From Astropecten irregularis (taxonomy: Eukaryota; Echinodermata; Asteroidea; Paxillosida; Astropectinidae), in the NCBI GenBank assembly GCA_963971285.1, contig OZ020259.1, positions 2,356,001 to 2,420,000 of the forward strand: a stretch of 64,000 nt of DNA, written 5' to 3'. Of this stretch, positions 19,501-21,858 are shown piece after piece; positions within the stretch are counted from its first letter, which is position 1; each line of letters opens with the position of its first letter. The position numbers and the translations under genes are program-made. A model generated the notes under the pieces. That model did not search any database and was not told the DNA's origin. It saw only the letters and a list, made by a program, of their open reading frames with translations.

Positions 19501-21858
19501 TCTCTTCCTAGTGCCAAGATCTTTCAAGTATCCAAGTGCAGTATCTGTAACCACAACCTGGAGCTACCGTCTGTGCACTTCCTGTGCCAACATTCCTATC
19601 ACCAACAGTAAGTCAACCCTCTACAACGGTAAAAAATAAACCGTCAGAATTTCTTGTGGCATTTAGAAGAAGAGATCAGGATTCTTTCATAGACAAATCG
19701 TCCTTCTTTCCTCACATATTCATTGTAAGTTATCTTTTAGACAAGTAACAAACTGCTGCAAACTGCTCATCAACCAAAATAATGACCTGAAAGGTATCAA
19801 AAGCTCGGAGTTAGGAGGGCCTGACAATTCGATCCCAGCAGGATGTTTTTCAAAGGCTTAATGACAAGAAGACAAGAACATGCAAGTAAAGATAAACATA
19901 AATGAGGATCGGAACAAAGGGGGACAGAGTGACCAGGGAAACAGAGAAAGCTTGCAATTAAGCTGGAAAACCACAAATAGGAAAGAGGTGGGCAAGTGTG
20001 GTCCAATCTTGTTTGTTTACGGAGTGAACGTTGGAAGAACATTTTAACGCTCGATTTAACTTCTACGTTTCTCTCTCTGTCTTTGCAGTTGTTTTGAGAG
20101 TTATGCCGAGAATGACTTGGAGTGTCCGGCCTGTGCTCCAGAGAATCACAAAGTCATGGACATCATCAGAGCCCAGGAACAGAGTAAAGATTTACACGAG
20201 CAGTTTCACCGCCAGGTAGGGTTCCTCCCCTTCTACCGACTCGATCCACTCGAGTTGATTCTTTGCAAAACAAAGCATACACTCATCACAGGCGGGGTTG
20301 GGCTTATGTCATAGGTATGAAGACATATGGTCACATTTGATCAGTTTTCTACGTGTTACTAGTCAGGTAGCCTAGACCCTTTTGAGACCATTCTATTTGT
20401 AGGCATTTGAAATGGGTACTAGACCTAGGTTCATGTGTACATATCTCTGCATTCAAACAGTGGACTAATAACAAAAGGAACAATAGGGTCCAGGATTGGA
20501 AAAAGTTCCAAGATTGGAAAGCATGTACAAAACCAATGGAGCTGCTGCCAAAAAGTTGAAGTCCAAACATTGGGGGGGTCCACGGTTGCAGGCGTTGACA
20601 CATGTGGGTGAGTTTGTGGATGTCCACCACTGCCTTAGTTGATAATTGCATTACCCCTTGTGAAAATACAAGAAATATGTAATTATGGTACAAATGTTAA
20701 TGCTCCATATTTCAACTTTACCTAAAGGGGCTTATTCTTTCAAAGTTTGTTCAGAAATTGTATTTTTGTTTTCTTTATACAGCTGGAAAAGTCTCAAGAC
20801 GGTTTCTCGGTCGTTGCCGACTATTTTGGTCGAGGAGTCTTCAATAAGGTGAGTTGGCAGGAAACGTACTATGATTTTTAATAGAGAGGCAATACTTTAC
20901 AGGAACAGAGCCACGTCAGAGTAAATTTCTCTTACAAGTCAACATCTGTATGTCTGACCTCACTCTAGAAAATGTTGCTTTTTGTCAAAGGTAGAGGATT
21001 TCAGTTTTACAGACTTTTATTTTCTACCTATTTGATATCTCCTTGCAGGTTACGCTTTTGACCGATAGCTTCCCATCCTCTCCAAAGAAACAACCACCCA
21101 GCCAGGCAGCTGGGGCACCGACTCAGCCCAGGCCAGCCCCGCAACAGGTGCCCAGACCAACCCAGCAGGTGCCTAGTTCAAACCAGCAGGCAGCCAGGGC
21201 AGCCCAGCCTGCACCCATGGCGGCTCAGCCTGTGCCCAGGGCAGCCCAGCAGACGCCCAGGCAAACGCCGCAGCCAGTACCGGCAAGAGCCACTCCACCA
21301 GCTCAAGGATACCAGCATGCACCCCAACCATCACCCAGCACCCATCCTTCACAAGCAGCATCATCGGGTAGAGCCCAGGCGCCCCAGACCCAAGCCCCTA
21401 GACCCACTCCCAGCGCCGCACCCTCATCAACCCAGGCCCCTCGAGGAGGCACCCAGTCCGCCTACCCACAAGAGAGCAAACCGCGATCAGCCGCCGATAT
21501 CTACCGCTCCAGCCCGACGATGCTGAGCCAAACATCATCATCAAGTCCTAGCAAGGTACGCCAGCCACCCATGGCCCCGACTACCCAGGACTACAACCCA
21601 TTCTCCACCGGGGCCGGTGCCCCCAAGGCACCCACACAGACCCCGGCCAGTACAACAACCCACAAGCCTGCCCCTTCAAAAGAACCACAGCATTACAACC
21701 CTTTCGAGACCGCAGAGGACGAGCATAATTCCTCGGGTGACAGCTTGAACCCGTTTTCGGGGCGCGTGGATTCACCCCCGAACCCGTTTGAAGACAAAGC
21801 TGCGGGGTCCAACCCCTTCGGGGAAGACGAGGACGCCAACAATCCATTCAATCAGTAG
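7591..21858 (+). CDS. VPS11: VPS11, HOPS/CORVET core subunit (25 coding exons, 1181 aa)
   Basis: VPS11 is a shared core subunit of the HOPS and CORVET tethers, which drive endosome and lysosome fusion with Rab5/Rab7 and SNAREs. Exons: 7591-7608, 8330-8404, 8713-8886, 9190-9410, 9888-10032, 10166-10255, 10415-10551, 11207-11268, 11550-11629, 12032-12111, 12417-12570, 13084-13230, 13581-13772, 14535-14640, 15399-15431, 16281-16414, 17027-17161, 17430-17518, 17934-18008, 18395-18572, 18779-18900, 19512-19607, 20089-20215, 20783-20848, 21049-21858. Phases close to 3546 nt. The first exon holds only MAFLQQ and joins [10 protein letters not shown], matching the family N-terminus. An N-terminal beta-propeller and clathrin-repeat solenoid precede a C3H2C3 RING: Cys825, 828, 841, His843, His846, Cys849, 860, 863. 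After the family's LTLLTD motif it adds about 260 residues that the 941-aa human protein lacks. The exon 4 acceptor could be 3 nt upstream. Confidence 0.95.
8929..9130 (-). repeat. Dispersed repeat E in VPS11 intron 3
   Basis: Contains GGAGGCCACAGAGGCCACGG-type runs and 'AATGTTTCCATAGACATTA'. The same block occurs in opposite orientation at 28590-28760. The open frames through it on both strands (8704-9105 and 8941-9423) merge repeat with flanking VPS11 exons and are not genes. The repeat class is unknown. Confidence 0.6.
9530..9785 (+). mobile_element. LINE (non-LTR retrotransposon) fragment, ORF2 C-terminus
   Basis: The + strand frame reads [19 protein letters not shown] followed by a [14 protein letters not shown] stretch. 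This arginine-rich 'RLYGHVARF' block is typical of the region after the reverse transcriptase domain in LINE endonuclease-reverse transcriptases. Only this end is present; no RT catalytic motif was found nearby, so it is a 5'-truncated dead copy. It sits in VPS11 intron 4 and must be spliced out. Confidence 0.6.
10600..11060. repeat. Tandem repeat, about 163-bp unit, 2.7 copies, VPS11 intron 7
   Basis: 'ATTTAGAGGTTGCTCCAAGA' at 10633 returns as 'ATTTAGAGGATGCTGTGAGA' at 10797 and more weakly near 10960. 'GGAATGTTCCGCAGAAGAGC' and its variant also recur at this spacing. Open frames on both strands here are repeat artefacts. Confidence 0.75.
11318..11445 (+). repeat. Dispersed repeat RPT-1 copy
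   Basis: RPT-1 begins AAGTAATAAACTGCTGCAAA, passes through 'CATCAGCCAAAATAATGACC' and ends 'GATCCTAGCAGGATCTTTCT'. About nine loci carry it in this window. This copy is full length and diverged, in VPS11 intron 8. Confidence 0.75.
12879..13014 (-). mobile_element. SINE family A copy, VPS11 intron 11
   Basis: The minus strand shows a tRNA-like head with 'GGTCGCTAGTTCAAATCCCA' (box B region), and 'CACCAACATAGGGCTGG' at the 5' side. Copies occur at 32016-32155 (-), 32160-32365 (+), 52240-52375 (+), 58111-58275 (-) and 60503-60570 (+). It ends only about 70 bp before the exon 12 acceptor. Confidence 0.7.
13936..14151. mobile_element. MITE-4 copy, VPS11 intron 13
   Basis: The ends are inverted: 'CCAAACCTCGGCTCCGGCTC' at the left and 'GAGCCAGAGTCGAGGTTTGG' at the right, with the core 'AGTAGATTCTCTGGTTTGAA'. 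Other copies: 49908-50118, 50350-50495 (partial), 56017-56239 and 61425-61565 (partial). Non-coding. Confidence 0.75.
14271..14413. mobile_element. MITE-2 copy (palindromic), VPS11 intron 13
   Basis: A roughly 145-bp near-palindrome from 'CTGGGGTCAATTTCACCAAA' to 'TGAAATTGACTCCAG'. The same element occurs at 24111-24269, twice in tandem at 31314-31620, at 50865-51017 and 57546-57688, and as a fragment at 18591-18665. Confidence 0.8.
14838..15330. repeat. 21-bp minisatellite, about 23 copies, VPS11 intron 14
   Basis: The unit ATGTCACTAGTTCACTATTAC recurs in register with substitutions (CCCTAG, CTGGTT, GCTAGATC). Each unit contains the palindromes ACATGT and ACTAGT. Because 21 is a multiple of three, both strands stay open (14786-15328 minus; 15007-15435 plus) as heptapeptide repeats, but no start context, splice sites or homology support a gene. 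It ends about 70 bp before the 33-nt VPS11 exon 15. Confidence 0.95.
15630..15960 (+). mobile_element. SINE family C copy, VPS11 intron 15
   Basis: The tRNA-like head has box B 'GTGGGTTCGAGTCCAGCC'. The body includes 'CTTCTCTTCACCCAGGAATA' and 'GCTGGGGCTGTATACTCCCC', and the tail block is 'GCGCTTTATAGAAA'. A reverse copy is at 42650-43020. Confidence 0.75.
16527..16993 (+). repeat. 56-bp minisatellite derived from RPT-1, about 8.5 copies, VPS11 intron 16
   Basis: 'GGATCTTTCTCAAAGGCTGC' recurs at 16583, 16639, 16695, 16751, 16807, 16867, 16923 and 16979, so the period is 56 bp (60 in one unit with a 4-bp insertion). The unit equals the right half of dispersed repeat RPT-1 ('GAGGGCCTGACGTTTCGATC' then 'CTAGCAGGATC'). 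The array ends 33 bp before the exon 17 acceptor. Confidence 0.9.
18121..18240 (+). repeat. Dispersed repeat H, VPS11 intron 19
   Basis: 'TCGGTCAAACTCGGTCACAT' and 'GTTGCTAAGGTGGGTGGGGC' recur in reverse orientation at 47607-47720. It is probably a non-autonomous element; class unknown. Confidence 0.5.
18591..18665. mobile_element. MITE-2 fragment, VPS11 intron 20
   Basis: Left half of MITE-2 ('CTGGGGTCGATTTCACCAAA' through the ATCAGTC and 'GACTTATGATATATTGATCA' region). It begins about 20 bp after the exon 20 donor. Confidence 0.65.
19742..19862 (+). repeat. RPT-1 copy, VPS11 intron 22
   Basis: Starts 'AAGTAACAAACTGCTGCAAA' and ends 'GATCCCAGCAGGATGTTTTT'; it matches the RPT-1 consensus over its length. 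Confidence 0.75.
21049..21858 (+). CDS. VPS11: VPS11 last exon: Pro/Gln-rich tail with six NPF motifs
   Basis: This 810-nt exon encodes residues 913-1181 and ends with TAG at 21856-21858. It starts with VTLLTD, the last part conserved with vertebrate VPS11, and continues in frame without a splice. Residues about 927-1060 are low complexity (Pro, Gln, Ala, Thr, Ser). The last 90 residues turn acidic and carry NPF at about 1095, 1129, 1146, 1157, 1167 and 1177, the protein ending NNPFNQ. NPF is the known ligand of EH domains (EPS15, intersectin, EHD proteins). A role in EH-domain binding is inference. The continuous frame and repeated NPF spacing argue against a sequencing artefact. Confidence 0.9.
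   Translation, partial: VTLLTDSFPSSPKKQPPSQAAGAPTQPRPAPQQVPRPTQQVPSSNQQAARAAQPAPMAAQPVPRAAQQTPRQTPQPVPARATPPAQGYQHAPQPSPSTHPSQAASSGRAQAPQTQAPRPTPSAAPSSTQAPRGGTQSAYPQESKPRSAADIYRSSPTMLSQTSSSSPSKVRQPPMAPTTQDYNPFSTGAGAPKAPTQTPASTTTHKPAPSKEPQHYNPFETAEDEHNSSGDSLNPFSGRVDSPPNPFEDKAAGSNPFGEDEDANNPFNQ

Follow-up and report, generated by a model that had tools for sequence, protein, structure and literature searches.

The VPS11 gene of Astropecten irregularis continues in frame beyond the conserved end of the protein into a tail of 263 residues that carries six NPF motifs, and the best reading of this tail, judged from its sequence, is that it may dock EH-domain proteins. VPS11 belongs to the core of the machinery joining endosomes and lysosomes, and the complexes that share it, HOPS and CORVET, are viewed as tethers that recognize Rab GTPases, lipids, and SNAREs. 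If the reading is true, a multivalent EH dock on this shared subunit would physically join tethering to membrane fission driven by EHD; in mammals, distinct proteins such as Rabenosyn-5, syndapin2, and MICAL-L1 are held responsible for this coupling. In that case, VPS11 of yeast, and probably that of humans, would be without part of the role that the protein has in other animals.

Within the window, i.e., the whole stretch of 64,000 nucleotides that was analyzed, VPS11 occupies positions 7591-21858 of the + strand and consists of 24 exons with a product of 1170 residues (Table 1). GT/AG borders are present at all 23 introns, and translation of the model meets no inner stop. Pfam analysis of 1164 residues (exon 1 omitted) gave matches to PEP5_VPS11_N (2e-123), TPR_PEP5_VPS11 (7e-116), and VPS11_C (1e-19), together with a RING (zf-C3HC4_2) at 27.4 bits vs. 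a cut-off of 27. The order of beta-propeller, solenoid, RING, and VPS11_C was thus recovered over cut-off at 1-334, 379-744, 807-846, and 850-894. The VPS11_C profile (PF12451) matched one place only at E <= 0.001 when run against the species' own genome of 475.7 Mb; this single place and the uninterrupted exons indicate that VPS11 is the sole orthologue in the genome and not a pseudogene.

Table 1. Positions of VPS11 features in the window.
Feature	Position	Strand	Remark
Exon 1 (MAFLQQ), proposed start codon	7591..7608	+	ATG in AAAATGG context, phase-0 GT donor
Exons 2-23: beta-propeller, clathrin-repeat solenoid, RING, VPS11_C	8330..20848	+	22 exons, AG before and GT after each
Exon 23, end of VPS11_C domain	20783..20848	+	PF12451 match
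VTLLTD, first six codons of last exon, end of conserved body	21049..21066	+	
Pro/Gln/Ala/Ser-rich basic linker, 172 codons	21067..21582	+	21-base repeats at 21145-21261
NPF 1	21595..21603	+	
NPF 2	21697..21705	+	Acidic flank
NPF 3	21748..21756	+	
NPF 4	21781..21789	+	Acidic flank
NPF 5	21811..21819	+	Acidic flank
NPF 6 (ANNPFNQ)	21841..21849	+	Two residues before C terminus
Stop codon TAG	21856..21858	+	
Polyadenylation-type hexamers AATAAA/ATTAAA 3' of stop	22105, 22164, 22582		

The last exon (window 21049-21858) spans 810 bases, all in a single open frame whose 269 codons are followed by the stop TAG, and its junction with exon 23 is in phase 0 (AAG/gtgagt ... ttgcag/GTTACG). Six codons complete the conserved end of VPS11, which we take to be VTLLTD or LTLLTD, and the remaining 263 encode the disordered tail. 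The original prediction of an in-frame tail with six NPF motifs was therefore confirmed, and the conserved end that it gave as LTLLTD reads VTLLTD. Because of the splice junction, the open frame, and the NPF array, we take the exon to be translated; only 46 of 20,000 mononucleotide shuffles of it stay open. It is highly unlikely that the exon is an artefact of the gene model, lying outside the mature VPS11 mRNA or confined to a minor isoform, given that it supplies the VTLLTD end and that consensus splice sites precede a frame open up to a stop, with poly(A)-type signals beyond. What speaks for an artefact is that the model derives from DNA alone, that the exon is GC-richer than the core exons (0.62 vs. 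0.51), and that its synonymous-codon score is negative in all three frames (-16, -30, and -60 bits). By itself this score lends no support to coding, and it is least negative (-16 bits) in the true frame.

Among the 159 linker residues counted, P makes up 21%, A 18%, Q 16%, and S 14%, and part of the linker is built from 21-base repeats at 21145-21261. Residues 1-178 of the last-exon product hold 16 K+R and 3 D+E, and its final 91 residues, which include all six NPFs, hold 5 K+R and 14 D+E, in keeping with the predicted succession of a Pro/Gln-rich linker and an acidic tail. AlphaFold2 returned a mean pLDDT of 49.6 for this product (39-61 in ten-residue blocks across its entire length) and no secondary structure, a weak indication of disorder since it comes from a single sequence. 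Capture of the tail from another gene was rejected as far as it would be detectable; when the last-exon product was searched against all six frames of the entire genome, the exon itself (E 3e-159) was recovered along with a single chance match (E 0.85), so that no relative was detectable elsewhere in the genome. Neither the tail nor a 746-residue stretch of the VPS11 core had a relative among viral contigs, and the segment from RING to VTLLTD had none in a collection of genome contigs, both collections being without animals.

The six NPFs lie at residues 1084, 1118, 1135, 1146, 1156, and 1166 of the 1170-residue model, each 11 below the approximate positions first proposed (1095, 1129, 1146, 1157, 1167, and 1177), whereas their number was as stated. 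The core (first 907 residues) contains none, and six of the seven Phe residues of the last-exon product sit inside an NPF. When the whole exon product or only its last 99 residues were shuffled, 200,000 times each, no shuffle contained more than three NPFs. At the DNA level, AAYCCNTTY matched 20 times across the window (14.8 expected; 20 was reached in 14 of 100 shuffles), i.e., without window-wide enrichment; six of these 20 matches cluster on a single strand in an interval of 255 bases and share the open frame of the last exon. The NPF codons differ synonymously (AACCCATTC, AACCCTTTC, AACCCGTTT twice, AACCCCTTC, and AATCCATTC), which indicates that the six motifs are not recent DNA copies. 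Recent tandem duplication of an NPF unit was ruled out by these codons together with the unalike flanks; the 21-base repeats do not extend beyond the linker. As in EH-domain ligands of class I (NPF), the tail presents NPF tripeptides in a disordered region (pLDDT from the single-sequence model), and, as in ligands of the EHD type, acidic residues directly follow three of the six NPFs (at least two D/E among the next six residues), the other three having none or one. Epsin, an endocytic adaptor, was used as a positive control; the gene in this genome (C11:9297908) encodes three NPFs and five DPW motifs. It resembles VPS11 in having several NPFs in frame with one at the very C terminus, and differs in its DPW motifs and in the absence of an acidic flank, none of its three NPFs having an acidic residue among the following six.

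EHD is an oligomeric membrane-shaping ATPase, and one EHD gene was found in the genome, with a single EHD_N place on C8 that lies 3 kb from an EH domain. This EH domain is canonical: it shares 64 of 94 residues with EHD1 (entry 2kff) and retains IWKLADVD. Further EH exons occur on C17 (three), C10 (one), and C12 (two), presumably of the EPS15, intersectin, and REPS families; on C17, two of the three matches take in a stop at the exon border. In total charge, the EHD domain (15 K+R and 17 D+E) is not more basic than that of EHD1 (14 and 15). Residues 519-520, numbered from W485, are Glu-Asp here vs. Ala-Asp in EHD1. The Ala-Asp pair of EHD1 has been tied to NPF selectivity (PMC7511005), and its EH domain favors NPFs with acidic flanks (PMC13282721). 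A triple NPF peptide has been reported to bind EPS15 with higher affinity than a single one (PMC12808100).

Human VPS11 has about 26-30 residues in place of the tail and is not known to carry an NPF. A PDB search with the VPS11 core up to VTLLTD matched yeast Pep5 (7zu0, 8cuk) and two RNF8 RING sequences, with human VPS11 absent among these four, and exon 23 alone had no match in the PDB. Yeast Vps11/Pep5 (7zu0, 8qx8) is the same core protein, a subunit shared by HOPS and CORVET (PMC11187117), but it has no such tail, with only six residues beyond the aligned core end (7zu0, 1029 aa). A literature search on VPS11 and NPF motif matched only a Toxoplasma AP1 paper, and among the matches listed for VPS11 and EHD1, neither term stood in a title or abstract. 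A search on R06F6.2, vps-11, and NPF had a sole match, a 2013 paper in which C. elegans R06F6.2/vps-11 is named among "proteins with several NPF repeats" (PMC3570524). Hence, the original view that VPS11 NPFs were undescribed is not strictly correct, and the array is not confined to this lineage. The array is probably older than this lineage. In the same paper, vps-11 was undetected in a two-hybrid screen with EH baits of EHS-1, ITSN-1, RME-1, REPS-1, and R10E11.6, even though its cDNA was present in the library and was also cloned and tested as prey; we found no positive EH-binding result for that prey, and the RME-1 bait comprised just the EH region (aa 668-786; PMC3570524). The authors considered the screen near complete for EHS-1, ITSN-1, and REPS-1, and thought that RME-1/EHD ligands were possibly missed (PMC3570524). 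Therefore, the only EH-binding evidence that we found for a VPS11 is negative, by a method that its authors call weak for EHD, and it weakens the EH claim without refuting it.

Docking of EH-domain proteins is the best reading of the tail because the array is non-random, half of its motifs are acidic-flanked, the tail appears disordered, and EHD and other EH exons are present in the genome; the docking predicted for the HOPS/CORVET core is thereby partly supported, with the nematode screen counting against it. On balance, we lean toward the view that CORVET and HOPS carry here a multivalent dock for EH domains, above all that of EHD. The last exon would then provide a flexible arm, in which the Pro/Gln-rich linker of about 175 residues would keep the six NPFs at a distance from the end of VPS11 that bears the RING, where it meets VPS39 in HOPS or VPS3 in CORVET at a corner of the tether. 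Each NPF may bind an EH domain at low affinity, with strength gained through multivalency, and the three acidic-flanked NPFs would favor EHD, the remainder possibly being shared with EPS15 or intersectin. EHD held beside the tether on an early or sorting endosome could link fusion with the fission of recycling tubules. In HeLa cells, recycling vesicles positive for Vps3 lacked the CORVET core subunit Vps18 (PMC5824891), which makes early/sorting endosomes the likelier place of action and the proposed link to recycling less direct than first suggested. Several observations count against the EHD dock: half of the NPFs are followed within six residues by no more than one acid, EHD has Glu-Asp in place of the Ala-Asp of EHD1, and its EH domain is not more basic overall than that of EHD1. 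The nematode result, the synonymous-codon score, the HeLa finding on Vps18, and a 2026 review of EHD partners with no occurrence of HOPS also count against it.

The tail could instead bind mainly EPS15, intersectin, and REPS, and thereby bring HOPS/CORVET near clathrin-derived vesicles soon after uncoating. We hold this to be unlikely. The EH exons on C17, C10, and C12 would supply such partners, the three NPFs without a clear acidic flank resemble those of epsin in this genome, and EPS15 affinity is raised by multivalent NPF (PMC12808100); however, the other three motifs are of the type preferred by EHD, and C. elegans vps-11 escaped detection with precisely those baits for which the screen was judged near complete (PMC3570524). 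A rather improbable alternative is a disordered extension under weak constraint, whose NPFs arose as a by-product or persist as an old remnant and have little function. The linker does contain 21-base repeats typical of slippage, the nematode EH screen was negative (PMC3570524), and the core job of VPS11 is done without a tail in yeast, nor is human VPS11 known to have one. Yet those repeats lie outside the NPF block, slippage does not explain motifs that differ synonymously and lack alike flanks, and six NPFs exceed the maximum of three seen in 200,000 shuffles.

It is very improbable that the motifs serve a receptor without an EH domain, such as an SHD1-like domain or POLE2. NPFx(1,2)D is a yeast signal read by SHD1 (Sla1), and NPFED and NPFGED of the tail fit this form; no SHD1 was matched in this genome at E <= 0.001, although the control genomes were equally without a match. 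In human cells, POLE2 has recently been shown to read NPF, but its named partners are nuclear (PMC12808100), whereas VPS11 is endolysosomal. A broader and doubtful scenario extends the EH dock: the tail may be an ancestral bilaterian EHD/EH platform on the HOPS/CORVET core, kept in echinoderms and nematodes, while in the vertebrate line VPS11 would have lost it and Rabenosyn-5, likewise a protein of endosome fusion, would have gained an NPF array. The coupling of endosome tethering to EHD fission would then have been conserved as its site hopped between proteins.

Other NPF proteins of endosomes offer a comparison. MICAL-L1 and syndapin2 bind EHD1 and are needed for its recruitment to sorting endosomes (PMC7511005), and in MICAL-L1 only the first of two NPFs is acidic-flanked and required for EHD1 binding (PMC13282721); unlike VPS11, neither is a subunit of a tethering complex. 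Mammalian Rabenosyn-5, an EHD1/EHD4 ligand, is likewise an endosomal protein with an NPF array, having five NPFs within residues 151-784 (PMC7511005). Its NPFs are reported to have acidic clusters after them and to bind EHD1 (PMC13282721), the latter as the original prediction had stated. It is unrelated to VPS11 and is marked by FYVE and Rbsn domains. Pfam analysis of VPS11 matched neither domain, so VPS11 lacks the Rabenosyn-5 combination of FYVE, Rbsn, and NPF array. The Rabenosyn-5 gene of this genome is separate from VPS11 (FYVE at C1:35530765, Rbsn at C1:35546293). A second Rab-binding domain was not found at E up to 10, the last visible exon stops three residues past the only Rbsn domain detected, and the stretch examined contains no NPF array. 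Thus, VPS11 has six NPFs and Rabenosyn-5 no array here, and mammals show the reverse, with five NPFs reported in Rabenosyn-5 and none known in VPS11.

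The VPS11 gene of Astropecten irregularis was modeled from the window exon after exon, giving 24 exons, GT...AG boundaries at all 23 introns, a single terminal stop and a product of 1170 residues. The position of exon 1 (MAFLQQ) is our own proposed placement, made from start context, donor and phase. Pfam families follow the order propeller, clathrin repeat, RING and VPS11_C along the product, and VPS11_C was found at one place in the 475.7-Mb assembly (168 contigs) at E <= 0.001. The last exon begins with VTLLTD and runs on for 263 more residues, which bears out the original prediction of a long in-frame tail with six NPF tripeptides, ligands of EH domains. 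Queried by itself, the tail matched no Pfam family; AlphaFold2 gave no structure for the exon product by itself (pLDDT 49.6), and codon usage of the last exon added no support for coding. Tandem arrays lie close upstream of exon 1, where the unit is indivisible by three and the frame therefore shifts from copy to copy, and in VPS11 introns.

Coordinates of features (window positions, the window being G000:C23:2356001-2420000, or G000:Cn for contig n of this genome)
Feature	Position	Strand	Remarks
VPS11	7591-21858	+	
VPS11 exon 1	7591-7608	+	
Upstream array	4040-7372		136-base unit, 24.5 copies, 95% matches
Intron array	14835-15329		21-base unit, 23.6 copies
Intron array	16534-16993		56-base unit, 8.1 copies
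Epsin-like C-terminal frame	G000:C11:9297908		349 residues
FYVE exon	G000:C1:35530765		
Rbsn match	G000:C1:35546293-35546418		sole match even with E up to 10
COX1-family gene	G000:C131:32162-33484		contig of 102,890 bases
Partial COX1	G000:C25:9951047-9952018		within 14-Mb contig

The first part of the tail is a basic linker rich in Pro, Gln, Ala and Ser and partly made of 21-base repeats, and the second is an acidic stretch of 91 residues that holds the six NPFs. The array is non-random: shuffling the exon product 200,000 times yielded three NPFs in 6 cases and never more. As the motifs were located by their amino acids, their first and second codon positions are alike by construction and were excluded from the evidence; the synonymous positions vary and the flanking residues are dissimilar, which makes selection on the tripeptide likelier than copying. 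Only two stop-to-stop frames, the VPS11 tail (6) and epsin (3), held more than one NPF in a small, hand-picked sample of 221,414 bases (26 pieces, some overlapping), which is no genome-wide count and left out L001, L009 and L011-L013 (L011 and L013 being the C131 and C25 COX1 loci). At the sequence level the tail is real, and it is probably functional.

EHD proteins oligomerize, and one EHD gene was detected, with EHD_N on C8 and the EH domain 3 kb off; the best PDB chain match of this domain is EHD1 (2kff, 7e-40; 64/94 identical). Other EH exons occur on C17 (three), C10 (one) and C12 (two), and presumably resemble EPS15, gamma-synergin, intersectin and REPS. The positive control for the NPF comparison was an epsin-like frame in which DPW occurs five times and NPF three times, the last NPF ending the frame (NPFLL); an ENTH exon lies ~5 kb before it. 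Within six residues after the motif, two to four acidic residues occur in three of the six VPS11 NPFs and none in any of the three epsin NPFs. Such an acidic context is given as an EHD1 preference in PMC13282721.

The original prediction also took the feature to be, as far as was known, undescribed for VPS11, but multiple NPF motifs in C. elegans R06F6.2 (vps-11) are already in print, mentioned in passing in PMC3570524. According to the same paper, the R06F6.2 cDNA was in the library and was also tested after cloning as prey, and it was undetected with the EH baits of EHS-1, ITSN-1, RME-1, REPS-1 and R10E11.6. Its authors allow that RME-1 ligands were possibly missed, given the importance of EHD oligomerization and the preference of EHD EH domains for NPFs with acidic residues after them. 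This negative result is the sole binding test of an NPF-bearing VPS11 that we found, and no other paper on such a protein was among the matches listed. EH ligands with NPF arrays are a known kind; what is new is that one is predicted on a host protein where it was not expected, nematodes being a partial precedent.

Mammalian Rabenosyn-5 is reported to bind EHD1 and, in PMC7511005, to carry five NPFs within residues 151-784. In A. irregularis, the FYVE and Rbsn exons on C1 probably belong to one gene, judging from their order and strand. No NPF occurs in any plus-strand frame between the FYVE exon and the Rbsn-exon stop, and in the following 37.6 kb the only NPFs are two single ones, the first in a 60-aa and the second in a 27-aa frame. 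Unlike the mammalian protein, Rabenosyn-5 here (C1:35530765-35546430) apparently ends three residues past the only detected Rbsn and has no visible NPF array, barring a weak donor before the stop that leads to exons farther off. Taken with the VPS11 tail, this one genome suggests to us that animals may differ in which endosomal protein carries the link to EHD.

In yeast, the RING and long C-terminal helix of Vps11 hold Vps39 (HOPS) or Vps3 (CORVET) (PMC11187117, in part), so that a tail leaving the end of RING/VPS11_C would begin at the joint between the core and the Rab-binding arm. A multivalent NPF arm at this joint could gather EH proteins close to the docking site; EPS15 affinity is higher for multivalent NPF (PMC12808100, in part). 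From partial texts, EHD1 arrival at sorting endosomes requires the NPF proteins Rabenosyn-5, syndapin2 and MICAL-L1 (PMC7511005), and Vps18 occurs with Vps3 on early endosomes and is absent from Vps3-positive recycling vesicles (PMC5824891), which points to the early/sorting endosome as the place where the VPS11 tail and EHD would meet.

The mitochondrial contig C168 (16,335 bases) reads sensibly with the echinoderm code, which makes an echinoderm the most likely source. TGA is a sense codon at 10 positions of its COX1, in which AAA and AGA stand at what we take to be invariant Asn sites and Ser sites, respectively. The COX1-family gene on C131 has no stop under standard reading; as the mitochondrial copy needs sense TGA, C131 is probably a bacterial contig in the assembly, from a symbiont or contaminant. 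The partial COX1 on C25 contains seven TGA and is probably mitochondrial DNA copied into the nuclear genome.
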